From Bordetella petrii (GTDB lineage: Bacteria > Pseudomonadota > Gammaproteobacteria > Burkholderiales > Burkholderiaceae_B), in contig WMBV01000010.1 in NCBI GenBank assembly GCA_017745595.1, positions 62,001 to 126,000 of the forward strand: 64,000 nt of DNA, written 5' to 3'. Under the pieces are notes generated by a model. That model saw nothing but the letters and a program-made list of their open reading frames with translations. It ran no database searches and was not told where the DNA came from. The position numbers and the translations under genes were made by a program. Below, in pieces: positions 8,120 to 28,508 of the stretch. How positions within the stretch are numbered: position 1 is the stretch's first letter; every line of letters starts with the position of its first letter.

Positions 8120-8150
8120 GCCATCCTCGTTCGTGTCCGCAAGAGCGGCC

Positions 8151-8170
8151 TCCGGCGCCAGCGCGCCGGA
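8151..8170. other. Intercistronic stem-loop between binding protein and permease genes
   Basis: A perfect 8-bp inverted repeat (TCCGGCGC / GCGCCGGA) with a 4-base loop, in the 62-base gap after the binding-protein stop. There is no T-tract, so it is not a classical terminator. In many ABC importers such hairpins protect the binding-protein mRNA or reduce read-through, giving more binding protein than permease. That role is inferred here. Confidence 0.5.
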
Positions 8171-8181
8171 TTGTCCGGTTC

Positions 8182-13606: not shown

Positions 13607-14845
13607 CTATCCTTGGGTCTGGATACGATTGCGCAGCAGCCGGTAGGGGTCTTGCAGCAATTCGATGACCTGATTGAGAAACTTCAGCGCGCTGGCGCCA
13701 TCGTGCAGCCGGTGATCGGCCGCCAGGACGACGCCCATTTCGCGCTTGAGCGCCGGTGCGCCTTGTGCATCGGGCCGGAATACCTCACGGATGCTGCCGA
13801 CCCCCAGAATTGCCGATTGCGGCGGGTTGATGATGGGGGTCATGTAGGTGACGTTGAACATGCCGGCATTGGACACCGTGATGGCGCCGCCGCTCATGTC
13901 GTCGCGGGTGGCCTTGCCCATGCGTACGCGTTCCAGCAAGGCTCCCGATTGCTCGGCTATATCGTCCAGCGTCGCGTCGCGCAGGCCATGCAGCACCGGC
14001 GCCATCAGGCCGCGTTCCGTGGCCACCGCCATGCCGACGTCGATGTCTTCGTACTGGACAATGTGGTCGTCGTTCCAGATGCGGTTCTGGTAGGGCAGGG
14101 CGTACAGGGCGCGTGCCACGGCGGCAAGCACGAAATGGTTCAACGTCAGCCTGGGCGTGCCGGGCTGCTGGTTGAGGCGCGACCGCAGGGCCAGCAATTC
14201 GCTCACCTCGGCTTCCGCGGCCAGATAAAAATGCGGAACCTGCTTGGCCTGCACCATGCGCCGCGCCATCGACTGCACCAGCGCGCTGGCGGCAACTGGC
14301 TGCGCCGCGGGTGGGCGTGCGGGCCCCGGCCCCGGGGCCGGGGCGGAAAGCGAAGGCGCGTCGTCGCGGTGCGTGGAGGCCTGGCCCGCCTGATTCCGGA
14401 CGTCGGCCGCCCGGATGCGGCCTCCGGGGCCGCTGCCGGCGATCCGGCCCAGGTCAAGGCTGGATTCACGCGCCAGGCGCCGCGCCAGCGGCGTGGCCAC
14501 TACCCGGCCGCCGGCCGGGACTGCGGCGGTGATTGGCGCGGGTGCGGCCACCGGGGGCGATGCGGCGGCAGGATCGGCCGGCGGCGCATCCGCCGCCTGG
14601 CCCGGGCCGGTCCAACGCGCGACCACGGTACCCACGGGCACGGTTTCGCCTGCCTGGACCAGAATCTCGGCCAGCACACCGTCGGCCGGGGCGGGAATCT
14701 CGTTGGCGACTTTTTCCGTCTCGACCACGAACAACGGATCTCCCGCCTTGACCGGCTGCCCGGCGCCTATGCTCCATTCGACCAGCATGCCCTCGGTCAT
14801 GGTCAAGCCCAGCTTGGGCATGAGAAGATCGGTCAACTGGCTCAT
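13607..14845 (-). CDS. 2-oxoacid dehydrogenase E2, dihydrolipoamide acyltransferase
   Basis: Core of the dehydrogenase complex; transfers the acyl group from lipoamide to CoA. The 412 residues run in order: one lipoyl domain with the lipoylated lysine in VVETEKVANEI (K45), an Ala/Pro-rich linker (about 80-120), a peripheral subunit-binding domain (ATPLARRLA...GSGPGGRIRAADV), a second Pro/Ala linker and the catalytic acyltransferase domain ending with the active-site DHRLHDGA. The usual motif is HxxxDG and it is intact. It begins three bases from the upstream hydratase stop. Partners E1alpha and E1beta are upstream; E3 is at 3237-4646. Confidence 0.92.
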   Translation of the reverse strand: MSQLTDLLMPKLGLTMTEGMLVEWSIGAGQPVKAGDPLFVVETEKVANEIPAPADGVLAEILVQAGETVPVGTVVARWTGPGQAADAPPADPAAASPPVAAPAPITAAVPAGGRVVATPLARRLARESSLDLGRIAGSGPGGRIRAADVRNQAGQASTHRDDAPSLSAPAPGPGPARPPAAQPVAASALVQSMARRMVQAKQVPHFYLAAEAEVSELLALRSRLNQQPGTPRLTLNHFVLAAVARALYALPYQNRIWNDDHIVQYEDIDVGMAVATERGLMAPVLHGLRDATLDDIAEQSGALLERVRMGKATRDDMSGGAITVSNAGMFNVTYMTPIINPPQSAILGVGSIREVFRPDAQGAPALKREMGVVLAADHRLHDGASALKFLNQVIELLQDPYRLLRNRIQTQG

Positions 14846-14848: not shown

Positions 14849-15634
14849 CTATTGCCCCGTAAAGCGGGCGGCGCGCTTTTCAAGAAAGGCGCCGATGCCT
14901 TCATGTGCATCGCGCGTATCCAGTACCAGACCAATCATGGCTTGTTCATGCGCCAGGGCGTTGGCCAGCGGCATGTCGGCGCCATCGCGCAGCGTCCGCT
15001 TGAGCAGCTTGAGCACCAGAGGTGACTTGCCGGCGATCTGCTCGGCCAGGGTCATGACTTCGTTCATGAGTTCATTGCGCGGGACGGCGCGATTGGCCAG
15101 CCCGACACGCACGGCTTCGCTCGCGCTGATGCGGCCGCCGGTGAACATGATTTCTTTGGCTACGCACGGCGCGATCTGGCGGATGATGCGCTGCGTGCCG
15201 CCGGCCCCGGGGAACAGGCCCAGATTGATTTCGGTGAGCGCAATCGCGGCGCTGTCGGCCAGGATGCGCAGGTCGAGTGCCAGCAGCAGCTCGGTGCCGC
15301 CGCCCAGCGCCCAGCCGTTGACGGCGGCAATGGTCGGCTTGTCGCATGTTTCCAAGCGCCGGAACACGCGGTGAATGTCTTCGGCGAATTCCCGGTAGTG
15401 CGCCAGGCCTTGCCGGGAGTTCAGGTCTCCCAGGTCGCCGCCCGCCACGAAAGACTTCTCGCCGGCGCCCGTGATGACGATGACGCGGCAGTCGTCGTTG
15501 GCCTCGAGGGCCGCAAAGGCCTGTTCCAGCTCGAGCAGCGTCGCGGTATCCAGCGCGTTGTGCACCGCCGGACGATTGATGGTCAGGACTCCGACGTGAT
15601 TGCGGATTTCGGTGAGGATGCTTGGTTCTTTCAT
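14849..15634 (-). CDS. Enoyl-CoA hydratase (both catalytic glutamates present)
   Basis: A 261-residue crotonase-fold enzyme that adds water to 2-enoyl-CoA. It shows the oxyanion-hole loop SFVAGGDLGDL and both hydratase glutamates, one in LGGGTELLLA and one in LTEINLGLFPGAGGTQ, so a true hydratase is likely, unlike several other crotonases in this window. It is inserted between E1beta (14 bases away) and E2 (three bases away), which ties its expression to the dehydrogenase complex. Confidence 0.9.
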   Translation of the reverse strand: MKEPSILTEIRNHVGVLTINRPAVHNALDTATLLELEQAFAALEANDDCRVIVITGAGEKSFVAGGDLGDLNSRQGLAHYREFAEDIHRVFRRLETCDKPTIAAVNGWALGGGTELLLALDLRILADSAAIALTEINLGLFPGAGGTQRIIRQIAPCVAKEIMFTGGRISASEAVRVGLANRAVPRNELMNEVMTLAEQIAGKSPLVLKLLKRTLRDGADMPLANALAHEQAMIGLVLDTRDAHEGIGAFLEKRAARFTGQ

Positions 15635-15648: not shown

Positions 15649-16623
15649 TCAGGCGCAGAGCTTGCGGGCGGCTGCGATGATGTCTGCTTCTTGGGGCTGG
15701 TATTGCGTTTCCAGTGACGGCGCGAACGGTACCGGCACGAATGGCGCCGCGACCCGGACGATGGGGGCATCCAGTTCGTCGAAGCCGATATCCGCCATGC
15801 GCGCGGCGATCTCGGCACCGACGCCGAAGGCCTCCACGGCCTCGTGCACGATCAGCAAGCGGTGCGTGCGTTTCAGCGACGCCAGCACCGCCTGTTCGTC
15901 CCAGGGCTGGATGGTGCGCAGATCCAGGATCTCGGCTTCGATACCTTGTTCTGCGAGCGCTCGCGCGGCCTGTTCGACTTTTGCGACGGTGGCGCCATAA
16001 GTCACGACGGTAAGATCGCGGCCGGCGCGCGCCAGGCGCGCCCGACCCAGCGGGATGGGGCCGGCGTCGTCAGGTACTTCGCCTTTGGCCGCATACAGAG
16101 CCTTGTTTTCGACGAATATCACCGGATCCGGGTCCTGGATCGAGGACTTGAGCAAGCCGTAGGCGTCGGCCGGGTTACTGGGGCACACGACTTTCAGCCC
16201 CGGAATATGCGCGAACCAGGCTTCCAGGCATTGAGAATGCTGCGGCCCCGCGCTGATGCCGCCGCCATGCGGCGTGCGTACGACCAGCGGCACCGACGTC
16301 TGTCCGCCGAACATGAAGCGGGCCTTGGCCGCCTGGTTCACCAATGCGTCCATGGTCAGCGTCATGAAGTCCATGAACATGATTTCCAGCACGGGCTTCA
16401 GGCCCGACAGCGCGGCGCCCACTGCCGCATTGGCCATTGCGGCTTCCGAGATGGGCGTATCGCGGATGCGGTCGGAGCCGAACCGGGCATGCAGGCCGCG
16501 GGTGACGCCGAACGGGCCGCCCGCTTCGGCGATGTCTTCGCCGAACACAAAGACGGTAGGGTCTTCTTCCATGCACTCGGACAGCGCACGATTGATTGCA
16601 TGGGCAAAACGAAGCTCGGCCAT
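15649..16623 (-). CDS. 2-oxoacid dehydrogenase E1 beta subunit
   Basis: Forms the alpha2beta2 thiamine-diphosphate E1 with the preceding gene product and decarboxylates a 2-oxoacid. The 324 residues contain FVFGEDIAEAGGPFGVTRGL (about 25-44), the DTPISEAA segment, and the C-terminal transketolase-C region LLIVHEAVEAFGVGAEIAA. ATG 16623 follows the E1alpha TGA by one base (TGAGATG), with AGAGG inside the end of E1alpha as the ribosome-binding site. A longer open frame exists, but the family begins at MAELRF. Best resemblance is to acetoin and branched-chain-type E1 beta. Confidence 0.92.
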   Translation of the reverse strand: MAELRFAHAINRALSECMEEDPTVFVFGEDIAEAGGPFGVTRGLHARFGSDRIRDTPISEAAMANAAVGAALSGLKPVLEIMFMDFMTLTMDALVNQAAKARFMFGGQTSVPLVVRTPHGGGISAGPQHSQCLEAWFAHIPGLKVVCPSNPADAYGLLKSSIQDPDPVIFVENKALYAAKGEVPDDAGPIPLGRARLARAGRDLTVVTYGATVAKVEQAARALAEQGIEAEILDLRTIQPWDEQAVLASLKRTHRLLIVHEAVEAFGVGAEIAARMADIGFDELDAPIVRVAAPFVPVPFAPSLETQYQPQEADIIAAARKLCA

Positions 16624-16624
16624 C

Positions 16625-17596
16625 TCAGCAAACCTCTGCTTGAGTGTAGACGTCATTGCGCGCAGCCTGCCAATCGGGGGCACGCCCCTGGCGCGCCCGC
16701 TCCACGGCTTTTTCGACACGGGCCTGAAGGCTCTGCAGCACTTGCTCGCGCTGCGCCTTTTTCACGCCTTTCTTTTCCAGCACCGTCTCAAAGCGCGCGA
16801 CGGGATCATGCTCGCCCAGCCCCTCGATTTCGTCGCTGGGCCGATACTTTTGCGGATCGCCTTCGTAGTGGCCGCGCCAGCGATGGGTTATGCACTCGAG
16901 CACTTGCGGGCCCTGGCCCGCGCGGATCGCCTCGGCCGCGGCATGCGCCGCGTCGATGACCTGCAGGACGTCGTTGCCGTCTACCTTGTTGTGCGGCACG
17001 GAAAAAGCGGCCGCCAGCTTGTCCAGCGGCGCCACGAATTGCTTGTGGGTTGGCGAGAATTCGGCCCAGCCATTGTTTTCACATACGAATAGCAGGGGCA
17101 GCCGCCATAGCGAAGCCAGGTTCAGGCTTTCGTGCAGCACCCCTTCGGCCATGGCGCCGTCGCCAAAAAAAGCGACCGCCAGGGCGTCGGTCTTTTTGAC
17201 TTGGTGTGCCAGTGCGCTGCCCAGTGCGATGGGAATACTTGCTCCGACGATGGCGTTGGCGCCCAGCATGCCGATCGACATGTTGGCGACGTGCATCGAA
17301 CCGCCGCGACCCTTGCATATGCCTTCTTCGCGGGCCATCAGCTCGAGGAAGAAATCCTCGATATCGATGCCCTTGGCCAGCGCGTGGCCATGGCCGCGGT
17401 GCGTCGATGCCACCGTATCTTCGCGCCGCAGTACCACGCCCATGGCCGCGGCCACCGCTTCTTGCCCGACGCTCAGGTGAATGAAACCGGGAACCTCGCC
17501 ATCGGCAAACAGGCGCCCGAGCCGCAGCTCTACCAGACGAATGCTCAACATGCGTCCGTACACATCGAGCAGATGTTCTTTGTTGGTCGTTGCCAT
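16625..17596 (-). CDS. 2-oxoacid dehydrogenase E1 alpha subunit
   Basis: Thiamine-diphosphate-binding subunit of the dehydrogenase, 323 residues. It has GFIHLSVGQEAVA, STHRGHGHALAKG, GGSMHVANMSIGMLGANAIVG and the ThDP motif GDGAMAEGVLHES...CENNGWAEF. These resemble acetoin dehydrogenase AcoA and related E1alpha proteins. I prefer ATG 17596, preceded by GAGG; a GTG at 17602 is also in frame. It is the first gene after the palindromic promoter region and heads the long minus-strand series. Acetoin, a branched 2-oxoacid or a ring-cleavage 2-oxoacid are possible substrates. Confidence 0.92.
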   Translation of the reverse strand: MATTNKEHLLDVYGRMLSIRLVELRLGRLFADGEVPGFIHLSVGQEAVAAAMGVVLRREDTVASTHRGHGHALAKGIDIEDFFLELMAREEGICKGRGGSMHVANMSIGMLGANAIVGASIPIALGSALAHQVKKTDALAVAFFGDGAMAEGVLHESLNLASLWRLPLLFVCENNGWAEFSPTHKQFVAPLDKLAAAFSVPHNKVDGNDVLQVIDAAHAAAEAIRAGQGPQVLECITHRWRGHYEGDPQKYRPSDEIEGLGEHDPVARFETVLEKKGVKKAQREQVLQSLQARVEKAVERARQGRAPDWQAARNDVYTQAEVC

Positions 17597-17641
17597 CTCC
17601 ACCTCGTTACGATCCGGCTCGGCAGTCCAAGCGGAAGAGCC

Positions 17642-17738: not shown

Positions 17739-18515
17739 TCAGTGGGGCCGCTTGCGCCGCAGCCCGTCCAGGTAGGCAAGAATGGTTTCCCGTACGCCGG
17801 GCCGATTGAAGTTCTTGTGCATCAAAGGTTCCAGCGTCGCCATCCGCTGCAGCATGGCGGCGGGCGATTCCGTCGCCAGGCGCCCCTGGCGGGCGATGTC
17901 CAGGGCCTCGCGCCGCTTCGCGTAGTAGGCCAGCCGCCGCTCCGCCAGCGGCGCGAAGCCGTCGGCGGGCAGCACGTCGGTGGCCAGGCCCAGATCGCGC
18001 GCGGCCGCCGCGCCGAGCGTGTCGCCGCTCAGGCACAGCCGCCGGGCCTGGGCGGCGCTGATCTTGGTTTCCAGGGCGATCTGCACCATTACCGGATACA
18101 TGTTGAAGGCGATCTCGGGGCACGACAGGGCCAGGTCCTGGGCGGCGATGACGATGTCCGTCATGGCCAGCAAGATCACGCCCGCCCCGGCCGCCTTGCC
18201 CTGCGCGATCGCGAGGATGGGCAGGGGGCAGCGCGCCATGGCTGTCATCAATTCGCGCAGGCTGTTGCCCTGTTTTTCCAGGCATTCGGAGCCCATTGCG
18301 AATTCATCGATGTCGCCGCCGGCGCAGAATAGCGCGGGCGACGCGCTGCGCAGCAGGATCATCCCGGCGCCGTCTTCCGGGGCGTGAACGATGGCGTGGA
18401 TCATGGTGTCGAGCATGGCCGTGCACAGGGCATTGGCCTTGCCAGTGCGATTCAGCACGATCGACCGGATGCCGTCGGCGTCCTGGACCAGTATGGGATC
18501 GGCGGTATGGGTCAT
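17739..18515 (-). CDS. Enoyl-CoA hydratase/isomerase family protein, atypical active site
   Basis: A crotonase-fold protein of 258 residues. The oxyanion loop LFCAGGDIDEF is present. The first hydratase glutamate position (GGGxE) reads GAGVIL, so it is missing, while the second (SCPEIAFNMYP) is kept. It may therefore be an isomerase, hydrolase or another crotonase reaction rather than a hydratase. ATG 18515 overlaps the stop of the upstream NDP-forming acyl-CoA synthetase (ATGA), so the pair is translationally coupled. Its 3' end lies 48 bases before the palindromic operator of the E1alpha operon. Confidence 0.85.
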   Translation of the reverse strand: MTHTADPILVQDADGIRSIVLNRTGKANALCTAMLDTMIHAIVHAPEDGAGMILLRSASPALFCAGGDIDEFAMGSECLEKQGNSLRELMTAMARCPLPILAIAQGKAAGAGVILLAMTDIVIAAQDLALSCPEIAFNMYPVMVQIALETKISAAQARRLCLSGDTLGAAAARDLGLATDVLPADGFAPLAERRLAYYAKRREALDIARQGRLATESPAAMLQRMATLEPLMHKNFNRPGVRETILAYLDGLRRKRPH

Positions 18516-20614
18516 TGGAATCGGCTCACGACGGCATCCAGCACCCAGGCGTCGCCGCCGCGGATCGCCAGGGGATTGATCTCGATCTCGGCCAGGTCCG
18601 GCCGCTGCAGAAAAACTTGGCACAGCTGGGCGACATGCCGCGATATCGCCGCCAGGTCCGCCGCGTCCCGGCCCCGGAAGCCCTGGAACAGGCGGGCCGA
18701 GCGCAGCGACTCGATCATGGCCTGGATGTGCGTGGCGTCCAGCGGCAGCAGCCGGCTGGATACATCGGCATCGAGCTCGACTTCGACGCCGCCCCGGCCC
18801 AGGGTCAGAGCGGCGCCGAATTTCGCGTCGCGGCGCAGACCCAGCAGCAGTTCGTGGTCGTACGGCTGCATTGATTCGAGCAGGATGCCTTGCGCGTCCA
18901 GCCGTTGCTCGCGCGCGATCTGCCACAGCTGCCGCACGGCCGCGTCCAGTTGCGCGTCGCTCTGGATGTTCAGGATGACGCCGCCGATATCGCTCTTGTG
19001 CAGCAGGCCGGTGGCCTGCAGCTTGGCGACCACGGGGTAGGCCAGCGGCGCGGGCAGCGCGTCGAGCGCCGGGTCAGCGACCAGCACGCCGGCGGGAATG
19101 GCGGCGATGCCGAGCTCGCGCAGCAGCGTCTTGCTGTCCCATTCGGTCAGCGCGGCAGGTGTGCCGGCCGCGGCGGCCGCCGGCGCGTCGGCCGGCAAGG
19201 GCGGCAGGCGCAGCGCTGCCTGGCGCAGGGCATCCAGGCGCACGGCGGCCCCCAGGGCCGCGACGGCCTGGGGGATGTCGCGGAACACCGGGATGCGTGC
19301 TTGTTCCAGGATGGCGACCGAGTCTTCGCGGGCGCCGATCCAGATCACGACGATGGGGCGGTGCGTGCGCTGGCGGGCCTGCGCGATGGCGTCCGTGAAG
19401 GCCGTGGCGATGCTGTGCATCAGGCCCACGAACAGCACGATGGCATCGGTGCCGGGCGCCGACGCGACCGCCTCCAGCGCCTTCGAGATGCTGGCCGTGT
19501 CCTGGACGACGTTGCCGGTCAGGTCCAGCGGGTTGGCGGCCTTGACGAAGGGCGGCAACACCTGTGCCAGCGCGTCGGCGGCCTGCGTGGGCAGGGCGGG
19601 AAGCCGCAGGCCCCAGCGCTCGGCCTCGTCGGCGATCAGCACGCCGGCGCCGCCCGATACGGACATCACGGCAAGCCGGTTGCCTTGCGGAACGCTGTCG
19701 AACAGGTACAGCCGGGCGGCGTCGATCATCTGGCTGAGCGAATCCACCCGCAGGGCGCCATGCTGGCCCAGGCAGGCGTCATAAAGCGCATCGTCGCCGG
19801 CCAGCGCCCCGGTGTGCGAAGCCGCCGCCGCCGCGCCCGCCTGCGAGCGGCCGGCCTTGATGGCGATGACGGGCTTGCCCGCCTCCGCGGCGCTTCGCAG
19901 TGCCTGCCGGAATGCCGCCGTGTCGCGCACGTCTTCGACATACAGGCCGATGACGCGGGTATCCGGGTCGCCGGCCAGGTAGGCGATGGCCGCGGCCGCG
20001 TCCATGTCGCATTCGTTGCCAGTGGTGATCCATTTGCTGAACCCCAGCCCCGAGCGCAGGCAGATATCCATCCAGTAGGCGCCCAGCGCCCCGCTCTGGC
20101 TGACCAGGGCGAAGCCGCCCTGCCTGATCGGCGTTGCTTCGAGCGCGGTGGTGAAAGAGGCGATCAGCCCCGTGGCGCTGTTGGCCACCCCCAGGCAGTT
20201 CGGCCCCAGGATCGTGATGCCGTGGGCGCGCGCCAGGTCGCCCAGGCGGCGCTGCAGCGCCGCGCCCGCGTCGCCGGTTTCGGAAAAGCCCGAGGAAAAC
20301 ACCACGAAGGCCCGCACCCCGGCGGCGATGCCTTCCTGGACGACGCCTTCGACCAGGGCGGCCGGCGTGCCGACGATGGCCAGGTCGACCGGTTCGCCGA
20401 TCGCGGACAGGGAAGGGTAGCTCTTGAGCCCCTGGACTTCCGCCCGGGCCGGGTTGACCGGGAACACCTTGCCGGCGAACCCGCGCGACAACATATATGA
20501 AAGGGGTCGGCCCGCGATTTTGCCGGGATCGGCCGACGCGCCGACGATGGCGACGTTGCGCGCCTCGAGGACGGCGGCGGCCCGTGCCGCCGGGGTTTTT
20601 GCCAGGTGGCTCAT
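18512..20614 (-). CDS. NDP-forming acyl-CoA synthetase (acetate-CoA ligase type)
   Basis: A 700-residue single-chain fusion of the alpha and beta parts of ADP-forming acetyl-CoA synthetase: an N-terminal CoA-binding domain (VAIVGASADPGKIAG near residue 25), succinyl-CoA-ligase-like domains with the phosphohistidine region ASHTGALAG, and a C-terminal ATP-grasp domain (PVVAKLQATGLLHKSDIGG). It makes or uses an acyl-CoA with ATP/ADP. It heads a two-gene operon with the crotonase and is divergent from the acyl-CoA dehydrogenase operon at 20850; the shared spacer holds two similar operators. Confidence 0.9.
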   Translation of the reverse strand: MSHLAKTPAARAAAVLEARNVAIVGASADPGKIAGRPLSYMLSRGFAGKVFPVNPARAEVQGLKSYPSLSAIGEPVDLAIVGTPAALVEGVVQEGIAAGVRAFVVFSSGFSETGDAGAALQRRLGDLARAHGITILGPNCLGVANSATGLIASFTTALEATPIRQGGFALVSQSGALGAYWMDICLRSGLGFSKWITTGNECDMDAAAAIAYLAGDPDTRVIGLYVEDVRDTAAFRQALRSAAEAGKPVIAIKAGRSQAGAAAAASHTGALAGDDALYDACLGQHGALRVDSLSQMIDAARLYLFDSVPQGNRLAVMSVSGGAGVLIADEAERWGLRLPALPTQAADALAQVLPPFVKAANPLDLTGNVVQDTASISKALEAVASAPGTDAIVLFVGLMHSIATAFTDAIAQARQRTHRPIVVIWIGAREDSVAILEQARIPVFRDIPQAVAALGAAVRLDALRQAALRLPPLPADAPAAAAAGTPAALTEWDSKTLLRELGIAAIPAGVLVADPALDALPAPLAYPVVAKLQATGLLHKSDIGGVILNIQSDAQLDAAVRQLWQIAREQRLDAQGILLESMQPYDHELLLGLRRDAKFGAALTLGRGGVEVELDADVSSRLLPLDATHIQAMIESLRSARLFQGFRGRDAADLAAISRHVAQLCQVFLQRPDLAEIEINPLAIRGGDAWVLDAVVSRFQ

Positions 20615-20849: not shown

Positions 20850-21998
20850 GTGAGTTTGAGCTTTGCGTTTTCCAGCGAGCACGAGGCCGTCCGGGACACC
20901 GTGCGGCGCCTTTGCCAGGAAGAACTCGCGCCGCTCGTTTTCCAGGCGGAAGAGCAAGAAGTCTTTCCCAGGCAGGTTTTCCGGCGCTGGGGCGAACTGG
21001 GCCTGCTGGGCGTGCGCTACCCCGAGGCCGACGGCGGCAGCGGCCTGGACAAGGTCAGCGACTGCATCGTGCGTGAGGAACTGAGCTACCTGTCGCAGGC
21101 GTTCGCCTCGACCTGGTCCGCCCACACCCACCTGGGCATCTGGCCCATCTGGCGGATAGGCACCCCCGAGCAGAAAGCGCGCTTCCTGGCGCCGGCGCTG
21201 GCGGGCGACAAGGTGGCCGGCTTCGGCCTGAGCGAACCCGATGGCGGGTCGAATGTCCGCGCCATGAAAACCCGCGCCCAGCGCGTCGAGGGCGGCTGGC
21301 GCCTGCACGGCAGCAAGCTGTACATCACCAACGCGCCGTTCGCCGACTTCCTGCTGGTGGCGGCCCGCACCGAACAGGAACTCAGGCCCGAGTCGATCAG
21401 CCTGTTCATCGTCGAGCTGCCCAATGCGGGTTTCGAGATATCGAAGCTGAAGAAAGAAGGCATCCGCGCGTCCGAGACCGCGCTGATCCATATCGACGAT
21501 GCTTTCGTTCCCGACGACTGCCTGCTGGGCGAAACCCAGGGCACGTATCCCGTGATTCTGGAATCGCTCAGCGAGAACCGGGTGGGCGTGGCCGCGAATG
21601 CGCTGGGCATGGCCCGGGCGGCGTTCGATGCCGCGCTCGGTTTCGCCAACGACCGCGTCGTCGCCGGGCGGCGGGTGGGCGAATACCAGGCCATCGCGCA
21701 CAAGCTGGCCGACATGTCGGCGCAGATCGAGGCGGCCCGCTGGCTGGTCTATTACGGCGCGTGGCGGGTCGACCAGGGCACACTGGATGCGGCCACCGCG
21801 GCGCGCGTCAAGCTGGTGGCCAGCGAAACCGCCGTGTCCGTCAGCGAGCAGGCCATCCGCATTCTGGGCGGAGCCGGCATCATGCGCGAATACCCCGTGG
21901 GACGCATCCATCGCGATGCGCTGGTGTACGTCATCGGCGAAGGCACCAGCGAGATCCAGAAGAACATCATTGCACGTAGCCTGGGATTCAAACCATGA
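20850..21998 (+). CDS. Acyl-CoA dehydrogenase
   Basis: FAD-dependent acyl-CoA alpha,beta-desaturase of 382 residues. It has GFGLSEPDGGSNVRAMKT in the middle domain, LYITNAPFADFLLVAA and a C-terminal ILGGAGIMREYPVGRIHRD. The GTG start at 20850 is supported by AAGGAG eight bases upstream. It is the first gene of a tightly packed + strand operon; the next start overlaps its stop (ATGA). A second, distinct acyl-CoA dehydrogenase is encoded later in the same operon, which suggests two desaturation steps or two chain positions. Confidence 0.92.
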   Translation: MSLSFAFSSEHEAVRDTVRRLCQEELAPLVFQAEEQEVFPRQVFRRWGELGLLGVRYPEADGGSGLDKVSDCIVREELSYLSQAFASTWSAHTHLGIWPIWRIGTPEQKARFLAPALAGDKVAGFGLSEPDGGSNVRAMKTRAQRVEGGWRLHGSKLYITNAPFADFLLVAARTEQELRPESISLFIVELPNAGFEISKLKKEGIRASETALIHIDDAFVPDDCLLGETQGTYPVILESLSENRVGVAANALGMARAAFDAALGFANDRVVAGRRVGEYQAIAHKLADMSAQIEAARWLVYYGAWRVDQGTLDAATAARVKLVASETAVSVSEQAIRILGGAGIMREYPVGRIHRDALVYVIGEGTSEIQKNIIARSLGFKP

Positions 21999-22801
21999 CC
22001 GACTTTGTCCTGCGCGAGCGCCGCGGCGCGACGCTTGTCATTACCCTGAACCGCCCGCAGCGGCGCAATGCCTTCGACCTGGAAGTGCGCCAGGGCCTGG
22101 CCGAGGCGATCTTCGAGGCGCGCGACGACGACGCCGTCAAGGCGGTGGTCATCACCGGCGCCCAAGGGGTGTTCTGCGCGGGCGGCGACCTGAAATCGCT
22201 GTCCGAGGGCAAGCGCCCCATCTATAAAGATCGCGACCGGATCCGCCGCCTGCATACTTGGTTCCACGAACTGGTGAACCTGGAAAAACCCGTCATCGCC
22301 GCGGTTGACGGCCCGGCCTTCGGCGCTGGCTTCAACCTGGCGCTGGCCTGCGATTTCATCCTGGGCACGCCGTCGGCGCGGTTCTGCGCCGTGTTCGGGC
22401 GCATCGGCCTGGTGCCCGACCTGGGCGGCTTCTTCCTGCTGCCGCGCATCGTCGGGCTGCAGCGTGCCAAGGAACTGGTGTTCACCGCGCGCGAGGTCGG
22501 CGCCAGGGAAGCGCAATCGCTGGGCATCCTGTACGACATCGTGGCGTCCGAGGCCTTGATGGACCAGGCGCTGGCGCTGGCCGCGCGCTTTCACGGCGCG
22601 TCGACCGAAGCGCTGGGCATGTCGAAGAACATTCTGAACCGTTCGTTCAACCTGGACCAGAATACGCTGGCCGAACTCGAGTCCCACGCGCAGGCGCTGG
22701 CCATCCATACCGAATACCACGACGCGGCGGTCGCGCGCTTCCTGGGCAAGCAGCCGCTGGAATTTTCCTGGCCGGTAGACGACAAGGGCGGCAAGGCATG
22801 A
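21995..22801 (+). CDS. Enoyl-CoA hydratase/isomerase family protein (PaaG-like active site)
   Basis: A 268-residue crotonase-fold protein. The oxyanion loop VFCAGGDLKSL is present. Both hydratase glutamates are absent (GAGFNLALA and VFGRIGLVPDLGG), and the GLVPD...LPRIVG pattern is that of PaaG-like isomerases, which use an aspartate. So isomerase or another acyl-CoA rearrangement is more likely than hydration; hydration could be done by the MaoC-like proteins downstream. The ATG overlaps the upstream stop and its own stop overlaps the thiolase start. Confidence 0.85.
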   Translation: MTDFVLRERRGATLVITLNRPQRRNAFDLEVRQGLAEAIFEARDDDAVKAVVITGAQGVFCAGGDLKSLSEGKRPIYKDRDRIRRLHTWFHELVNLEKPVIAAVDGPAFGAGFNLALACDFILGTPSARFCAVFGRIGLVPDLGGFFLLPRIVGLQRAKELVFTAREVGAREAQSLGILYDIVASEALMDQALALAARFHGASTEALGMSKNILNRSFNLDQNTLAELESHAQALAIHTEYHDAAVARFLGKQPLEFSWPVDDKGGKA

Positions 22802-23949
22802 CGATGAACGCGTATATCACCGGCGCCAGCGACACACAGATCGGCGAGTTGCCGCAATCGAGCTGCATGGGCCTGCACGCCGAGGCCGCGTTCGGCGCCA
22901 TCCGCGATGCCGGCCTGGAACCGGGGGACATCGACGGGGTGCTATGTGCCTATTCGTTCACCGAGCCGCACCTGATGCTGGGATCGGTGTTCTGCGAATA
23001 CACCGGCATTCATCCCAATTTCTGCGCCGCCATCCAGGCGGGCGGCGCCAGCGCGTGCATCATGATCATGCAGGCGGCCGCGCTGGTGGCCAGCGGCCAG
23101 TGCAACCACGTGCTGGTAGTGACTGGCGATAACCGCCTGACGGGGCTGTCGCGCGACGGCGCGGTGGCCGCGCTGTCCGAAGTGGGCCATCCGCAATTCG
23201 AGCGGCCGTTCGGCATCAGCGTGCCGGCCTCGTATGCCCTGGTGGCGCAGCGCTACATGCACGATTTTGGCGTGACGCCCGAGCACCTGGCAGCCATCGC
23301 GGTGGAACACCGCCGCCACGCCGGCCGGCACCCGAAGGCGCACAAGCGCGAGCCTATCTCGATAGACGACGTGCTGCGTTCCAAAGAAATCTGCGCGCCG
23401 TTGCGGCTGCTGGACTGCTGCCTGATTTCCGATGGCGGCGCCGCCCTGGTGATTAGCCGGCGGGCTTCCCAGGCGGGTGGCCAGCGGGCGGTAGAGATCC
23501 TGGGCGCGGGCCAGGGGCATACGCACGAGCATATCGTGGCGGCCCCCAGCCTGACGGATTTCGGCTGCAAGGCCTCGTCGGCGCGTGCGTTTGCGACGGC
23601 CGGCCTCAAGCCGGCCGACATCGATGTCGCGCTGATCTACGACTCGTTCACTATCACGCTGCTGGTCGAACTGGAGTCCATCGGCTTCTTCGAGCGTGGC
23701 GAGGCCGGGCCTGCCGCCCTGCGGGGCGAACTGGGGTTGGGAGGCGCTTTGCCCTGCAACACCCATGGCGGCCTGCTGTCGTACGGCCATTCCGGTGCCG
23801 CCGGCGGCATGTTCCATGCCGTCGAGGCCGTGCATCAACTGCGCGGCCAGGCCAGCAACCGGCAGGTCGACGGCGCGCGCCTGGCCTTCGTCCATGGCGA
23901 CGGAGGCATTCTGTCCGCCCATTGCTCGCTCGTCCTGGGAATCGCCTGA
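22798..23949 (+). CDS. Thiolase-like (SCP-x/Ltp2-type) protein lacking the nucleophilic Cys
   Basis: A 383-residue thiolase-fold protein of the lipid-transfer-protein/SCP-x branch. Aligned by eye, the catalytic CxSG position reads GASA (in QAGGASACIMIM), so the acyl-accepting cysteine is missing. The GH loop (YGHSGAAGG) is kept. In actinobacteria, Ltp2-type members without this cysteine are retro-aldolases that need a DUF35 partner. The next gene here, one base away, is a DUF35 protein. I therefore favour an aldolase-like C-C cleavage over classical thiolysis; this is inference from motif and context. Confidence 0.82.
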   Translation: MTMNAYITGASDTQIGELPQSSCMGLHAEAAFGAIRDAGLEPGDIDGVLCAYSFTEPHLMLGSVFCEYTGIHPNFCAAIQAGGASACIMIMQAAALVASGQCNHVLVVTGDNRLTGLSRDGAVAALSEVGHPQFERPFGISVPASYALVAQRYMHDFGVTPEHLAAIAVEHRRHAGRHPKAHKREPISIDDVLRSKEICAPLRLLDCCLISDGGAALVISRRASQAGGQRAVEILGAGQGHTHEHIVAAPSLTDFGCKASSARAFATAGLKPADIDVALIYDSFTITLLVELESIGFFERGEAGPAALRGELGLGGALPCNTHGGLLSYGHSGAAGGMFHAVEAVHQLRGQASNRQVDGARLAFVHGDGGILSAHCSLVLGIA

Positions 23950-23950
23950 C

Positions 23951-24352
23951 ATGCACAAGCCGAAGATCCACCCCACCGCCGACAATCTGCCATTCTGGGA
24001 AGGTTGCCGCGCCCACAAGCTGCGCTACCAGGTCTGCGTCGACTGCGGCACCGTGCAGCTGATTCCCCGCGGCGTATGCACGCACTGCCATGGCCGCCAG
24101 CTGGCGTGGCGGGAATCGGCGGGCCAGGGGGCGGTGCTGAGTCATACCACCGTGTATCGCGCGCCCACGCCGGCGTTCAAGGCCGACACGCCCTATGTCA
24201 TCGCGCTGGTCGACATGGACGAGGGCTTCAGGCTGATGGTCAATGTGCAAGGCGGCAAGGACGCGCCGGTGGCCATCGGCACGCGCGTACGGATCGCCTT
24301 CGAGGCGCGCGGCGACGTCACCGTGCCGGTCGCCCAGCTGGAGCAGCCATGA
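23951..24352 (+). CDS. DUF35 zinc-ribbon/OB-fold acyl-CoA-binding protein
   Basis: A 133-residue small protein. The N-terminal rubredoxin-like zinc ribbon is CVDC...CTHC (C29, C32, C43, C46), followed by an OB fold with the typical TPYVIALVDMDEGFRLMVN. DUF35 proteins dock onto thiolase-like enzymes and bind CoA. ATG 23951 lies one base after the thiolase-like stop; longer in-frame extension into that gene is not coding. Its stop overlaps the next ATG. It is the presumed obligate partner of the thiolase-like protein. Confidence 0.88.
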   Translation: MHKPKIHPTADNLPFWEGCRAHKLRYQVCVDCGTVQLIPRGVCTHCHGRQLAWRESAGQGAVLSHTTVYRAPTPAFKADTPYVIALVDMDEGFRLMVNVQGGKDAPVAIGTRVRIAFEARGDVTVPVAQLEQP

Positions 24353-24744
24353 GTCCGGTATTCACCTACGAAAGCTTCACGCCCGGCGCAGTCCTGGGCG
24401 ATTGGGAAGAGTCCATGGATGCCGGGCTGGTTGCCGCCTGGGAACGCCTGTTCGGTACGCAAGCGAGCGACCAGCCCGCCCAGCGGGCCGGCCTGACCGT
24501 CGCCCTGATGATGCGCGCCTATCTGCATGTCGTGACGCCGCGCCCGCCCGGCAATATCCATGCGCGGCAGCTGCTGTCCATCCAGGGCCTGCCCCGGCCG
24601 GGCGAAATGGTGCGTTCGCGCGTGCGCTGCATCGACAAGGAAATACGCCGCGACCGCCGTTACCTGCAACTGGAGGTCAGCGGCACGGGCGAGCGTGGCC
24701 GCGCGCTGTACACCGGACGGATGCGCCTGATCTGGGCCGCATGA
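24349..24744 (+). CDS. Small hotdog-like protein, probable non-catalytic MaoC partner
   Basis: 131 residues. It has the look of a single hotdog domain (FTYESFTPGAVLGDW at the start, beta-rich C-terminal half) but lacks the MaoC/R-hydratase DxxNPxH motif. The next gene encodes a MaoC domain with that motif intact. Pairs of one catalytic and one non-catalytic hotdog occur in actinobacterial ChsH1-ChsH2 hydratases, where the broad pocket fits bulky acyl chains. Both junctions are ATGA overlaps (24349 and 24741). Fold assignment is tentative. Confidence 0.65.
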   Translation: MSPVFTYESFTPGAVLGDWEESMDAGLVAAWERLFGTQASDQPAQRAGLTVALMMRAYLHVVTPRPPGNIHARQLLSIQGLPRPGEMVRSRVRCIDKEIRRDRRYLQLEVSGTGERGRALYTGRMRLIWAA

Positions 24745-25154
24745 GAGGCATGATGACACCGCACCTTGAAGAAGTCTCGATGACGGTCACCCAGGCGGAT
24801 ATCGATATCTATGCCGAACTGACCGACGATTTCAACCCGCTGCACGTGGACCGCGAGTTCGCCGCCAAGACCCCCATGGGAGACACCATCGCGCACGGCA
24901 CGCTGTCGGTCAACCTGATCTGGCAATCGCTGGCGCGCACGTTCGGCGCCGACGCGCTGGAACACATCGACCTGGACATCCGCTTCCTGAAGCCGCTGTT
25001 CCCCAACGGCACGATCATCGCGGGCGGCCGCCGCGTGCCGGACAGCCCCGACACCTTCGACGTGTGGGTCAACGGGGCCGACGGCTTGCCCCTGATTGCG
25101 GGCCAGGCGCGGCTGGCTGGCCCGTCCGGCGCCAGGCACGCGCCGCTTTCCTGA
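24741..25154 (+). CDS. MaoC-like enoyl-CoA hydratase
   Basis: A 137-residue single hotdog domain with the complete hydratase motif: D30-F-N-P-L-H35 followed by PMGDTIAHGTL. These Asp and His residues activate water for addition to 2-enoyl-CoA, giving the R-hydroxy product in known enzymes. I use ATG 24741 because it overlaps the previous stop (ATGA), as in the rest of the operon; ATG 24750 and 24753 are alternatives. Probably a heteromer with the preceding small protein. Confidence 0.88.
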   Translation: MRGMMTPHLEEVSMTVTQADIDIYAELTDDFNPLHVDREFAAKTPMGDTIAHGTLSVNLIWQSLARTFGADALEHIDLDIRFLKPLFPNGTIIAGGRRVPDSPDTFDVWVNGADGLPLIAGQARLAGPSGARHAPLS

Positions 25155-25163: not shown

Positions 25164-26324
25164 ATGCAGTTCACCCATGAACACCAAGAGCTGCAGCGCA
25201 CCACGCGCCGCATCATTGCCGAGCACCTGGACCCTTATCTGGACCAGTGGGAAGCCGAGCAGATCTTCCCGGCCCGCCAGGTCATGAAGGCCTTCGGCTC
25301 GGCCGGCCTGCTGGGTATCGGCAAGCCGGCCGAGCATGGCGGGATGGCGCTGGACTTCAGCTACGAGATTGTCTTTGCCGAGACGCTGGGCGAGGTCCGG
25401 TCCAGCGGGCTGACCTCGGCCATCGGCGTGCAGAGCAACATGTGCACGCCAGCGCTGGCGCGCCACGGCAGCGATGCGCTCAAGCGGGAATTTCTGGCCC
25501 CGACCATCGCCGGCGACCTGGTGGGCTGCATCGGCGTCAGCGAGGCTTCGGCCGGGTCGGACGTGTCCCGGATCAAGACCTGGGCGCGGCGCGACGGCGA
25601 CGACTACGTCATCAGCGGCTCGAAGATGTGGATCACCAACGGCGTGCAGGGCGACTGGATCTGCCTGCTGTGCAATACGGCGCAAGAGGGCGGCCCGCAC
25701 AAGAACAAATCGCTGATCGTCGTGCCGCTGAAATCGCCGGGCGTCAGCGTGTCGCGCAAGCTCGACAAGATGGTGCTGCGCGCTTCGGATACCGCCGAGC
25801 TGTTCTTCGACGAGGTCCGCGTGCCGGTCTCCAACCGCATCGGCGATGAGAACATGGGTTTCATCTACCAGATGGAGCAGTTCCAGGAAGAGCGCCTGTT
25901 CGTGGCGGCCCGCGGCATGCGGTCGATGGAAATGGCCATCGAGCAGACCATCGACTACGCGGGCCAGCGGCAGGTCTTCGGGGGCACGGTGCTGTCCAAC
26001 CAGGTCGTGTACCACAAGCTGGCCGAGATGCAGACCGAGATCCAGGCCCTGCGTTCGCTGCTGTACCGGGCGACCGAACAATACATGGACGGGCACGACG
26101 TCACCCAGCTCGCTTCCATGGCGAAATACTATGCGGGCAAGCTTTCCATGAAGATCCCCAGCGAATGCCTGCAGTACTGGGGCGGCCAGGGCGTGATGAC
26201 CGAAAACTGGATCTCGCGCGCCTATCGCGACCTGCGCCAGACGGCCATCGGCGGCGGCGCCAATGAAGTCATGCTCGAGGTCATCGCCAAGACCATGGGC
26301 ATACATCCCGGCAAGCGCAGATAA
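25164..26324 (+). CDS. Acyl-CoA dehydrogenase
   Basis: A 386-residue FAD enzyme, the second dehydrogenase of the operon. Motifs: CIGVSEASAGSDVSRIKT and MWITNGVQGDWICLL in the middle domain and YWGGQGVMTENWISRAYRDLR at the C-terminus. It is quite different from the 20850-21998 paralogue. It starts nine bases after the MaoC gene and is followed by a Bug binding-protein gene. Probable substrate: a different chain-length or branched intermediate of the same pathway. Confidence 0.92.
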   Translation: MQFTHEHQELQRTTRRIIAEHLDPYLDQWEAEQIFPARQVMKAFGSAGLLGIGKPAEHGGMALDFSYEIVFAETLGEVRSSGLTSAIGVQSNMCTPALARHGSDALKREFLAPTIAGDLVGCIGVSEASAGSDVSRIKTWARRDGDDYVISGSKMWITNGVQGDWICLLCNTAQEGGPHKNKSLIVVPLKSPGVSVSRKLDKMVLRASDTAELFFDEVRVPVSNRIGDENMGFIYQMEQFQEERLFVAARGMRSMEMAIEQTIDYAGQRQVFGGTVLSNQVVYHKLAEMQTEIQALRSLLYRATEQYMDGHDVTQLASMAKYYAGKLSMKIPSECLQYWGGQGVMTENWISRAYRDLRQTAIGGGANEVMLEVIAKTMGIHPGKRR

Positions 26325-26383: not shown

Positions 26384-27364
26384 ATGTACAAAAAAATCCT
26401 GCAGCGCGCGCTGCTGTCCGCGCTTTTGTCGACAGCCTGCATCGCCGGCGCCGCGGCGGCCGCATCCTATCCCGCCCGGCCCATCCGCCTGATCGCGCCT
26501 ATCGCCGTGGGCGGGCTGACCGACACGCTGGCCCGGCTGGTGGCGGCGGGCCTGGCCGACAAGCTGGGCCAGCCCGTCGTGGTGGAAAACAAGCCGGGCG
26601 CCGGCGGCATTATTGGCATGGAAGCGGCGGCCAAGTCGGCCCCGGACGGTTACACCCTGATCCTGGTCTACCAGGGGGTGGCCGCCGTCAATGCCAGCCT
26701 GTATCCGGACCTGCCGTACGATACGCTGCGCGACTTCACGCCGGTTGCCGGCCTGGGCAGCTTCCCGCTGGTGCTCGTCACCAACGCCAAGACGGGCATC
26801 CGTTCCGTCGGCGACCTGATCCAGCGCGCCAAAGACAAGCCCAATGCGCTCAGCTACGCTTCCGCCGGCAATGCGACGACATCGCACCTGACCATGGAAC
26901 TCTTCAAGAACGAAGCTGACATCCAGGCCATGCACGTGCCCTACAAGGGCGAAGGCCCGGCCAACACCGATGTGGCGGGCGGCCAGGTGGACATTGCATT
27001 CTCGTCGCTGGCGTCGGTGGCGCCGTTGATCAAGTCGAACCGCCTCGTGGCCCTGGGCATCGGCACGCCGCGGCGATCGCCCGTCCTGCCTGCAGTGCCG
27101 ACCATCGCCGAGGCCGGTGTGCCCGGTTTCGAGGCCGTGGGCTGGTATGGCCTGCTGGCGCCGGCTGGCACGCCCGCCGGCATCGTCAAGCAGTTGAGCC
27201 AAGCCGTGGCCGACGTACTGAACCAGCCCGCCGTCCGCGAAAAGCTGGACGGGCTGGGCGTGACCGCGAACGCGACCTCGTCCGCGGCGTTCGGCGACCA
27301 GATCCGCTCGGAAACCGACAAATGGAAGAAGGTCATCCAGCAATCGCACATCACCGTGAATTGA
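26384..27364 (+). CDS. Bug-family (TctC-like) periplasmic binding protein
   Basis: A 326-residue tripartite tricarboxylate transporter receptor. It has a signal peptide (cleavage near residue 27, after ...GAAAAA), then the mature start YPARPIRLIAPIAVGGLTD and the family segment [20 protein letters not shown]. Bug proteins bind carboxylates or amides through water-mediated contacts. No TctA/TctB membrane genes are near, which is common for Bug proteins in this family of bacteria. It lies between the acyl-CoA dehydrogenase and CoA-transferase genes, so it may capture the pathway's substrate. Confidence 0.93.
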   Translation: MYKKILQRALLSALLSTACIAGAAAAASYPARPIRLIAPIAVGGLTDTLARLVAAGLADKLGQPVVVENKPGAGGIIGMEAAAKSAPDGYTLILVYQGVAAVNASLYPDLPYDTLRDFTPVAGLGSFPLVLVTNAKTGIRSVGDLIQRAKDKPNALSYASAGNATTSHLTMELFKNEADIQAMHVPYKGEGPANTDVAGGQVDIAFSSLASVAPLIKSNRLVALGIGTPRRSPVLPAVPTIAEAGVPGFEAVGWYGLLAPAGTPAGIVKQLSQAVADVLNQPAVREKLDGLGVTANATSSAAFGDQIRSETDKWKKVIQQSHITVN

Positions 27365-27371: not shown

Positions 27372-28508
27372 ATGTTGAGCAAGGCGTTAACGGGCATCAC
27401 CGTACTGGACTTCAGCCAAGGCATCGCCGGGCCGCACGGCGCCTGCCTGCTGGGCGAGATGGGCGCGGACGTTATCAAGATCGAGCCTCCTGCCGGGGAC
27501 TGGCTGCGCGGCCTGGGCCACCGGCAAGGCGATACCAGCGTCCTGTTCGGCTACTTCAACCGGGGCAAGTCCGGCATCGCACTCGATCTCAAGAGTCCGC
27601 CCGACAAGCAGGTAGCGTTAGACTTGATACGGCGCGCCGATGTCATGATCGAAAGCAACCGGCCCGGCGTGATGCGCAGGCTGGGCTTGGATTACGATGT
27701 GGCGCGCATGCTGAATCCCGGACTGGTCTACCTATCGGTGACAGGCTTCGGCCAACAGGGCCCGCATTGCGGTCTGCCGGCCACCGATGCTGCCATGCAG
27801 GCCTATACCGGATTCTCGTTCGGCGCGGGCGACATGCAAGAACCGGTGCGGGTACGCATTTCCGTGGTCGATATCCTGACCGGCGTGTATGCCAGCAATG
27901 CCGCGCTGGCAGCCCTGATGGGCCGTTCGGGCAATGGGGGGCAGGGGCAGTATATCGACCTGAGCCTCATGCACGGCATCAGCGCGGTGCAGGGGCCCAA
28001 GTACGCCGAACACCAGGCCACCCGGGGAGCGGTCAGCAGGGAGCTCTACGCGGCGATAGGCATCTACAAGACCCAGGACGGCCATGTTGCCCTGAGCGCC
28101 ATGCGCGATCAGCAAGTTACCGACTTCATCAAGCTGATCGGCCGAGCCGATGTGCTGGAAGATGGCGTTTACGCGACACAGCGGGATCGCCACGAGAACC
28201 AGGACGCGTTGCGGGCCCTGATCCAGGCGGAATTGCTCAAACGGCCGACGTCGCATTGGATAGACGCGGCGCGGCGGATCGACTTGATCTGCCAGCCGGT
28301 GCAGAACTATGCCGACTTCCGGCGCGACCCTCAGGTACTTGCCTACGAAATATTCCAGGAGATGGACCTGGGCTATGACAGTCCGCTGCCGGTGGTGCGC
28401 ATGCCTGGCATGGCGCCCACTGAAACCCGCCTGGAACCGCCCCCGCGCCTGGGGGGCGATACCGCGGAAGTGCTGCGGCGCTTCGGAGTTCGCCATCGCG
28501 AGTTATAG
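27372..28508 (+). CDS. CaiB/BaiF family (class III) CoA-transferase
   Basis: Transfers CoA between two carboxylates. 378 residues in the interlaced-dimer fold: VLDFSQGIAGPHGACLLGEMGADVIKIE at the N-terminus and the catalytic aspartate in SVVDILTGVYA. It ends the operon, seven bases after the Bug gene, and would activate the imported acid without ATP, complementing or replacing a ligase. A stem-loop follows before the convergent reductase gene. Confidence 0.92.
   Translation: MLSKALTGITVLDFSQGIAGPHGACLLGEMGADVIKIEPPAGDWLRGLGHRQGDTSVLFGYFNRGKSGIALDLKSPPDKQVALDLIRRADVMIESNRPGVMRRLGLDYDVARMLNPGLVYLSVTGFGQQGPHCGLPATDAAMQAYTGFSFGAGDMQEPVRVRISVVDILTGVYASNAALAALMGRSGNGGQGQYIDLSLMHGISAVQGPKYAEHQATRGAVSRELYAAIGIYKTQDGHVALSAMRDQQVTDFIKLIGRADVLEDGVYATQRDRHENQDALRALIQAELLKRPTSHWIDAARRIDLICQPVQNYADFRRDPQVLAYEIFQEMDLGYDSPLPVVRMPGMAPTETRLEPPPRLGGDTAEVLRRFGVRHREL

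Follow-up and report, generated by a model that had tools for sequence, protein, structure and literature searches.

A conserved cassette for a predicted hydratase and cysteine-less thiolase-like retro-aldolase in Bordetella petrii and other proteobacteria

The four-gene cassette and its distribution

The window analyzed here (64,000 nucleotides of Bordetella petrii contig WMBV01000010.1, assembly GCA_017745595.1, part of a 6.1-Mb genome) contains a compact cassette of four genes on the plus strand (positions 22798 to 25154), all four of which had been recognized in the original prediction. The first gene (22798 to 23949) encodes a 383-amino-acid (aa) thiolase-like protein, THL (Pfam IDs PF22691 and PF00108), which lacks the nucleophilic Cys residue, carries Tyr281, Ser283, and His331, and is predicted to be a retro-aldolase. 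It is followed by the genes for a 133-aa DUF35 partner with the zinc ribbon and OB fold (23951 to 24352; PF01796 and PF12172) and a C4 zinc motif; a 131-aa hotdog protein, HD1 (24349 to 24744), which has no match in Pfam and no hydratase dyad and is predicted to be the non-catalytic half of a hydratase; and a 134-aa MaoC-type enoyl-coenzyme A (enoyl-CoA) hydratase (24750 to 25154; PF01575) with the D-x-N-P-x-H motif. The description of these genes as overlapping is true of DUF35 and HD1, which share 4 bases, but not of THL and DUF35 (1 base apart) or HD1 and MaoC (5 bases apart). Several true genes, including the window genes for DUF35, HD1, and MaoC, were overlooked by the coding-potential gene finder.

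A scan of one genome per species (84,980 species) with two peptide patterns, which misses relatives that have neither pattern, returned 72 loci, mainly from Burkholderiales (Achromobacter, Bordetella, Paraburkholderia, Comamonas, and others) and Alphaproteobacteria (Roseomonas, Azospirillum, Roseovarius, and others). The hosts are dozens of soil and sea bacteria, among them B. petrii MY10 (locus L100); a genome of the same genus, G001, carries the cassette. The order THL-DUF35-HD1-MaoC is exact in 57 of the 72 loci, and three more have HD1-MaoC-THL-DUF35; in L077, the four genes are split over two strands, and in L076, no MaoC gene was called. HD1 is missing in 10 loci, 3 of which end inside the thiolase gene or at most 0.5 kb from it. 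Since many of the 72 loci are closely related to one another, the count overstates the number of independent cases. As a control, a tblastn search with the window HD1 of 20 paralogous thiolase loci from the same genome, each with about 1.5 kb on either side, found no HD1, and the only match to the HD1 profile in the entire genome is the window copy (E ≤ 1e-15). The grouping of the four genes is not due to chance. At the same threshold, a search of 300 genomes from the order of B. petrii, taken here from the named scan loci to be Burkholderiales, gave 7 with HD1, including the B. petrii genome itself. More distant HD1 matches (108 to 126 bits) come from four genomes of a single genus in family f29 (G110, G152, G190, and G225).

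The whole cassette is also encoded on plasmids, one from Azospirillum argentinense and one from Roseovarius indicus, whose records label the HD1 homologue "MaoC family dehydratase." These two records (L131 and L132) bring the set used for neighborhood comparisons to 74 loci. The R. indicus plasmid pRIdsm_01 (L131) has been typed as conjugative, and its cassette has insertion sequence (IS) element genes on both sides and adjoining TRAP transporter genes. The presence of at least two plasmid copies, one of them on a plasmid typed as conjugative, suggests that the cassette can spread as a unit.

All 70 DUF35 homologues, counted as one per locus, have the C4 zinc pattern, which in the window protein reads C-x2-C-x10-C-x2-C; the closest PDB matches of this protein are the DUF35 chains in the structures of Sal (9myr) and Ltp2 (6ok1). 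The assignment of the hydratase motif to MaoC and not to the other hotdog protein extends to their relatives: counted in the same way, the catalytic motif is present in 61 of 61 MaoC homologues and in 0 of 62 HD1 homologues. The family alignments comprised 61 of 63 HD1 sequences (from 62 loci and the window), 46 of 62 MaoC sequences, and 36 hand-chosen thiolases. Among the aligned HD1 members, 7 of 61 match PF13452; the window HD1 is not one of them. A sequence search of the PDB with HD1 yielded only chance matches to G-alpha proteins, and fold prediction was therefore used. The resulting model (pLDDT 94.5) is a MaoC-type hotdog, with Z scores of 13.5 against 1q6w_C, 13.0 against HadAB (4rlj_A), and 12.4 against ChsH1-ChsH2 (4w78_F). 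HadAB also pairs a dyad-bearing hotdog with a dyad-less one, as do MaoC and HD1.

The thiolase-like protein and its relatives

In sequence searches of the PDB, the best matches of THL are a "putative thiolase" from Sphaerobacter thermophilus (4u4e; E = 2.2e-79), Sal (9myr; 1.4e-58), and Ltp2 (6ok1; 1.6e-52), followed by Cys-type thiolases and others, so that, among solved relatives whose reaction has been demonstrated, the aldolases Sal and Ltp2 come closest. The best match in NCBIfam, named "acetyl-CoA acetyltransferase," scores below the cut-off, and the name is doubtful because the Cys is missing. The absence of this residue, which had been predicted from the sequence, is confirmed by the alignment (columns are numbered here after the window THL): the nucleophile column is occupied by Gly83, as in Sal and Ltp2, where Cys-type thiolases have Cys, and the loop that reads HDCF in Cys-type thiolases is YDSF in THL. 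One Cys residue lies a few positions past the nucleophile column, in the sequence GGASAC.

This arrangement bears on two readings of THL that do not involve aldol cleavage. The protein could be an ordinary or Claisen-type acyl-transfer enzyme (a thiolase, acyltransferase, or decarboxylase) working without the usual Cys, as might be expected from its fold, which is the same as that of Cys-type thiolases. TbSLP is reported to decarboxylate malonyl-CoA weakly, and DUF35 partners are also known for BbsB and PhlC (PMC12329534). We regard such an activity as quite unlikely: there is no Cys in either the nucleophile column or the YDSF loop, and the nearby Cys of the GGASAC stretch is replaced by Gly in the relative from locus L024. 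The same lack of Cys at both thiolase positions checked, along with the known scaffold roles of DUF35 complexes (PMC12329534), would fit a catalytically dead THL that merely holds the acyl-CoA for the MaoC hydratase. This reading is improbable. The columns that are invariant among the 36 thiolase sequences include G83, Y281, D282, F284, T322, G324, G325, S328, and G333, and the presence of the active-site loops among them argues against a dead protein; furthermore, the B. petrii genome keeps many such proteins, with 14 of its 21 thiolase-like proteins having Tyr281 and no Cys.

A wider alignment of thiolase sequences, drawn from input that included loci L051 to L058, from which identical sequences (148 reduced to 137) and translations shorter than 320 aa had been removed, comprised 141 rows. 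All eight rows with Cys83 carry His281 and His331. Another 131 rows, many of them close kin, have Tyr281 and no Cys83, and their residues in columns 283 and 331 are Ser/His in 76 rows, Ala/His in 17, Cys/Ser in 17 (L024 and its kin), Cys/His in 10, Asn/Tyr in 2, and Asp/Gln in 2; Cys/Gln (Sal), Cys/Tyr, His/Tyr (Ltp2), Ser/Tyr, Ala/Tyr, His/His, and Gly/Arg each occur once. Thus, 128 of the 131 rows hold Cys283, His331, or Tyr331, and none pairs Ser or Ala in column 283 with Ser or Gln in column 331. We dropped the claim of statistical support for an exchange between Cys283 and His331.

The phylogenetic tree was built by a quick method, with SH-aLRT as the only support measure, from 74 rows (144 reduced to 118 and then to 74 by removing a hand-made list of loci and near-identical rows), with the Pyrococcus furiosus protein 7yvy in the input. 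It separates 62 cysteine-less rows from 12 rows grouped around the Cys thiolases (SH-aLRT 99), although one of the latter, L018, also lacks the Cys. THL falls into a 27-row clade (98), and Sal, Ltp2, and 4u4e into another, 25-row group (97), within which Ltp2 clusters with L013, L016, and L049 (95); several rows, including Sal, sit on long branches. The phylogenetic comparison called for in the original prediction thus sets THL apart from Cys-type thiolases and also places it outside the Ltp2 and Sal groups. 4u4e, which has the YDSF and SYTH motifs and the same set of residues as THL, belongs to a different subclade.

Comparison with steroid aldolases and the proposed reaction

The closest characterized counterparts of the cassette come from steroid catabolism. 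CtSal-CtShy of the proteobacterium Comamonas testosteroni (PDB ID 9myr; PMC12329534, PMC11321319) likewise combines a Cys-less thiolase fold, a Tyr base in a YDxF/Y loop, a DUF35 domain, and a MaoC domain. Shy, however, is a homodimeric MaoC-DUF35 fusion with a C3H1 zinc site, whereas the window encodes separate proteins, a C4 site, and an extra, inert hotdog. TcLtp2-ChsH2DUF35 and ChsH1-ChsH2 (6ok1 and 4w78) share with the cassette an aldolase, a C4-zinc DUF35, and a pair of catalytic and inert hotdogs. The cassette had been seen as a mirror of Ltp2-ChsH1-ChsH2 in separate polypeptides, and the architecture is indeed the same, with the MaoC and DUF35 parts that are fused in ChsH2 encoded by separate open reading frames (ORFs); the two parts of the C. 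testosteroni protein reportedly retain both activities when expressed separately (PMC12502768).

The catalytic residues are Tyr302 and Cys304 in Sal and Tyr294 and Tyr344 in Ltp2; in Sal, the place of Tyr344 is taken by Gln352 (PMC12329534). These residues align with columns 281, 283, and 331, and THL keeps only the Tyr. In Sal, Tyr302 and the essential Cys304 of the YDCY loop are accompanied by Gln347 and Gln352, in contrast to Tyr281 and Ser283 of the YDSF loop, Leu326, and His331 in THL. In Ltp2, Tyr294 lies in a YDHF loop and corresponds to Tyr281, whereas His296 and Tyr344 correspond to Ser283 and His331. One of the two catalytic tyrosines of Ltp2, whose conservation had been proposed as a check, is therefore retained and the other is a His, a residue that is also found in this column in Cys-type thiolases. 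By sequence, this is a system of a known, Ltp2/Sal-like kind, with a THL that belongs to neither group and shares no more than the Tyr with their catalytic pairs.

A role of THL as a steroid or bile acid side-chain aldolase like Ltp2 or Sal would follow most simply from its nearest characterized homologues, which act on steroids. It is nevertheless most improbable, given the position of THL outside both groups, the retention of neither catalytic pair, and the C4 zinc site of its DUF35 (as opposed to C3H1 in Shy [PMC12329534]). In addition, the HsaA-type ring monooxygenase, the sole steroid marker searched for, was not found in the B. petrii genome (best match of 34 bits versus a cut-off of 450). 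In a control search, 5 of 200 genomes of the order gave near-full-length matches of 337 to 373 bits, all below the curated cut-off and so perhaps not true HsaA or steroid enzymes. Steroid use was rejected for lack of this one marker, and it is very likely that the substrate of the cassette is not a steroid. Its differences from the Ltp2 system thus include the clade, the absent HsaA-type marker, and a feature of HD1 considered below.

The analysis itself shows the sequences and their residues, the position in the tree, the conserved order of the genes, and the folds as predicted. From these, we consider the cassette to be, probably, a hydratase/retro-aldolase unit in the pathway of a non-steroid carboxylic acid, and we infer that its products form complexes and that its genes form part of an operon. 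In the proposed scheme, an imported acid would be converted to its CoA ester and then to an enoyl-CoA by ACAD1, an acyl-CoA dehydrogenase encoded upstream (see below). A heteromeric hotdog hydratase, made up of the dyad-bearing MaoC and the inert HD1, would hydrate the enoyl-CoA to a 3-hydroxyacyl-CoA, and THL docked to DUF35 would cut its C2-C3 bond by retro-aldol cleavage and not by thiolysis. Tyr281 would act as the base that deprotonates the 3-hydroxyl group, and His331, at the position of Tyr344 in Ltp2, might serve as the acid that protonates the enolate of acetyl- or propionyl-CoA. The residual aldehyde, ketone, or 2-oxo acid would then undergo further conversion, for which the E1-E2-E3 complex of the divergent genes is a plausible candidate.

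Several observations weigh against this scheme. THL has Ser283 in the column of Cys304, and the Cys304-to-Ser replacement abolished the activity of CtSal (PMC12329534). The Cys283/His331 pattern goes back to few events, with two changes of His331 in a 61-row count; there are only two independent pairs, and the sign test is not significant. Three of the 131 Tyr281 rows, two with Asp283/Gln331 and one with Gly283/Arg331, have none of the residues Cys283, His331, and Tyr331. The predicted structure of THL (pLDDT 89.5) is equally close to TbSLP (Z = 52.9), the archaeal thiolase 6esq (52.9), and Sal (52.4), with Ltp2 at 49.1; as these values tie, structure comparison was rejected as a means of telling aldolases from thiolases. 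HD1 is absent from seven loci with at least 1.8 kb of sequence after the thiolase gene. Finally, the central helix of the HD1 model is long (residues 39 to 61), whereas that of ChsH2 is short and that of ChsH1 long (PMC11321319). Hence, HD1 is no plain equivalent of ChsH2, and the division of labor between HD1 and MaoC, as far as it can be judged from a model, need not match that of ChsH2.

Cys-less thiolase relatives are numerous, and the published reactions that we found are mostly those of steroid enzymes. If the scheme is true, a Tyr/His retro-aldolase acting on a non-steroid acid would broaden the function of the group and provide an active-site rule that can be tested by mutation.

Neighboring genes and candidate substrates

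The cassette is part of a larger set of genes, of about 25 kb (3240 to 28508), that runs in two divergent directions and includes its own E1, E2, and E3 genes; the divergent part was missed in the original prediction. The genes flanking the cassette, two acyl-CoA dehydrogenases, a Bug protein, and a CoA-transferase, had been named correctly, as judged from their Pfam domains. ACAD1 (20850 to 21998, plus strand, with a GTG start) lies directly 5' of a crotonase-type enoyl-CoA hydratase (ECH) gene (21995 to 22801, plus strand), which in turn precedes THL; each of the two junctions is a 4-base overlap. Downstream of MaoC, also on the plus strand, are ACAD2 (25164 to 26324), a Bug/TctC solute-binding protein (26384 to 27364; PF03401), and a CaiB-type family III CoA-transferase (27372 to 28508; PF02515). 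Homologues of ACAD1 and ACAD2 with at least 60% identity are found in 23 and 8 of the 74 loci, respectively.

The divergent genes, all on the minus strand, begin with an NDP-forming acyl-CoA synthetase (18512 to 20614) and a 258-aa crotonase-type hydratase, ECHc (17739 to 18515; start picked by eye). They continue with the alpha (16625 to 17602; PF00676) and beta (15649 to 16719; PF02779 and PF02780; ORF limits, start uncertain) E1 subunits of a thiamine pyrophosphate (TPP)-dependent dehydrogenase complex, the enoyl-CoA hydratase ECHb (14849 to 15634), homologues of which occur at cassette loci, the lipoyl acyltransferase E2 (13607 to 14845; PF00198, PF00364, and PF02817), and the acyl-CoA dehydrogenase ACAD3 (12429 to 13601). 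Further on are an AMP-forming acyl-CoA ligase of the PRK06145 family (10856 to 12349; 952 bits, cut-off 850), an MmgE/PrpD family protein (9462 to 10820; PF03972), three genes for the permease-ATPase, permease, and binding protein of a branched-chain-type ABC transporter (5421 to 9393), and the dihydrolipoyl dehydrogenase E3 (3240 to 4886; TIGR01350, 476 bits, cut-off 409; start uncertain).

Neighbors were compared across loci by tblastn with the window proteins, as clustering of all ORFs was confounded by shadow ORFs in high-GC DNA. Of the 72 scan loci, 28 have E1 homologues (at least 50% identity for E1 alpha or 55% for E1 beta) beside the cassette, and one of the plasmid records raises this to 29 of 74; among these 29, ECHb passes in 26, E2 in 18, ACAD3 in 16, and the ligase in 15. 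Many loci end before the E1-E2 set could appear, and others lack it within the full 10 kb available on either side. Complexes with E1 alpha and beta subunits can use 2-oxo acids or acyloins as substrates. The B. petrii genome encodes two AceE-type pyruvate dehydrogenases that score above the cut-off, so the divergent E1-E2 complex is not needed for housekeeping; E1 alpha-type relatives are also found elsewhere in this genome. At the limit used, the PRK06145 ligase is present in 2 of the 300 genomes, and these two are among the 7 that encode HD1 (Fisher p = 0.0005; 0.02 without the B. petrii genome). In one genome, G046, the ligase and the cassette are on separate contigs.

Perhaps the cassette makes the substrate of the TPP-dependent complex. 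Such a link suggests a carbonyl product that is either a 2-oxo acid or similar to an acyloin. In the former case, the 3-hydroxyacyl-CoA would belong to the citramalyl type, in parallel to the itaconate/methylsuccinate pathway, which has an MmgE/PrpD isomerase. On this reading, which we consider rather unlikely, THL with its Tyr281/His331 pair would cleave a substituted citramalyl-type CoA ester, derived from a 2-substituted succinate or a comparable diacid. The products would be acetyl-CoA and a 2-oxo acid, and E1-E2-E3 would convert the latter to the next acyl-CoA. It would mean a hydratase-aldolase-dehydrogenase route with a thiolase relative in place of the usual citramalyl-CoA-lyase-type enzyme. 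The described itaconate/methylsuccinate cluster (PMC12290011) resembles the window set in having CoA activation, an acyl-CoA dehydrogenase, a hydratase, a C-C lyase, and an MmgE/PrpD protein; in contrast, its lyase is a citramalyl-CoA lyase that is not described as a thiolase relative, and its five genes as listed in the description include no E1-E2 complex.

The MmgE/PrpD gene is less informative than it first appears. At a cut-off of at least 58% identity, it occurs, besides the window, at 3 of the 74 loci (L092, L095, and L132). Among the 12 loci that have a PRK06145-like ligase and more than 1 kb beyond it, 2 have the gene; in L068, this position beyond the ligase is taken by a short-chain dehydrogenase gene. 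In the phmmer alignment to 2hp3, the residues listed for the IDS epimerase (H85, D88, H99, H150, K198, and K266; PMC12290011), taken here as a guide to MmgE/PrpD proteins that act on 1,4-dicarboxylates, correspond to His, Ala, His, Arg, Asp, and Lys, so that 3 of the 6 are kept, and its Tyr145 corresponds to Thr. With three residues changed and only three loci, this protein no longer counts as strong evidence for a diacid, and the citramalyl-type substrate stays a minority view.

A possible alternative, which concerns the last step only, retains hydration and retro-aldol cleavage by the cassette but assigns them to an aryl or branched alkanoic acid that is cut to an aldehyde or ketone; the E1-E2 genes would be part of a separate, neighboring pathway. 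In the ibuprofen pathway, the thiolase-like and OB-fold pair ipfD/ipfE is described as a retro-aldolase or thiolase that releases propionyl-CoA (PMC9195938, PMC11347016). Compared by description, this pair is similar to the window genes in its composition, its non-steroid acid, and its proteobacterial hosts; unlike them, it acts after a dioxygenase, and no MaoC pair is mentioned in the description. By this analogy, cleavage of an aryl or branched acid may be the simpler alternative to the citramalyl-type substrate. The restriction of E1 homologues to 28 of the 72 loci, their absence from some loci with a full 10 kb, and the lack of the ligase, at the limit used, in five of the seven HD1 genomes all agree with a separate pathway. 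Against it stand the presence of the rare ligase in two genomes that both encode HD1 and the recurrence, in varying layouts, of the E1-ECHb-E2-ACAD3-ligase set together with the cassette in both Beta- and Alphaproteobacteria.

In the original prediction, the cassette was considered an undescribed system that might provide an aldolytic route in a proteobacterium. The aldolytic part agrees with the architecture, the missing nucleophilic Cys, and the absence of the HsaA-type marker, but the claim of novelty fails on proteobacterial precedents: Sal-Shy (PMC12329534, PMC11321319), ORF40-44 of C. testosteroni TA441 (PMC12502768), and, for a non-steroid substrate, ipfDE (PMC9195938). Compared by description, the TA441 genes, like those of the window, include two acyl-CoA dehydrogenases, a hydratase pair, a DUF35 protein, and an aldolase, but in ORF40, MaoC is fused to DUF35 and the substrate is a steroid. 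Among the literature matches listed (titles and beginnings of abstracts, with subscription papers mostly outside), we found steroid, ibuprofen, and itaconate systems but none on this cassette, and a search with locus tags of Paraburkholderia xenovorans LB400 (L068) gave no match. The same matches contained no route linking a retro-aldolase to a dedicated dehydrogenase complex for 2-oxo acids or acyloins, and such a link would point to a catabolic route that we have not found in print.

Thiolase-DUF35 pairs are also found in other settings. In 13 loci (L110 to L121 and L127), MaoC is directly followed by a second thiolase gene and a second DUF35 gene; where seen, the second thiolase has the GGSS, YDSF, and CNNH motifs, and the first has YDCF and Ser331. 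One of these loci, L118, encodes a tannase/feruloyl esterase family protein (5718 to 7334) a few kilobases before the cassette, a possible hint of phenolic esters in that subgroup. The B. petrii genome has 15 DUF35 matches along with its 21 thiolase-like proteins, and the 14 Cys-less proteins with Tyr281 among the latter represent, by sequence, an expansion of probable aldolases. A second thiolase-like gene in the window (36354 to 37912, minus strand) has a YDGF loop, Arg in column 331, and no Cys. It comes with its own DUF35 gene (37478 to 37912) and lies beside a 772-aa ORF (37912 to 40227) with two CaiB-type CoA-transferase stretches.

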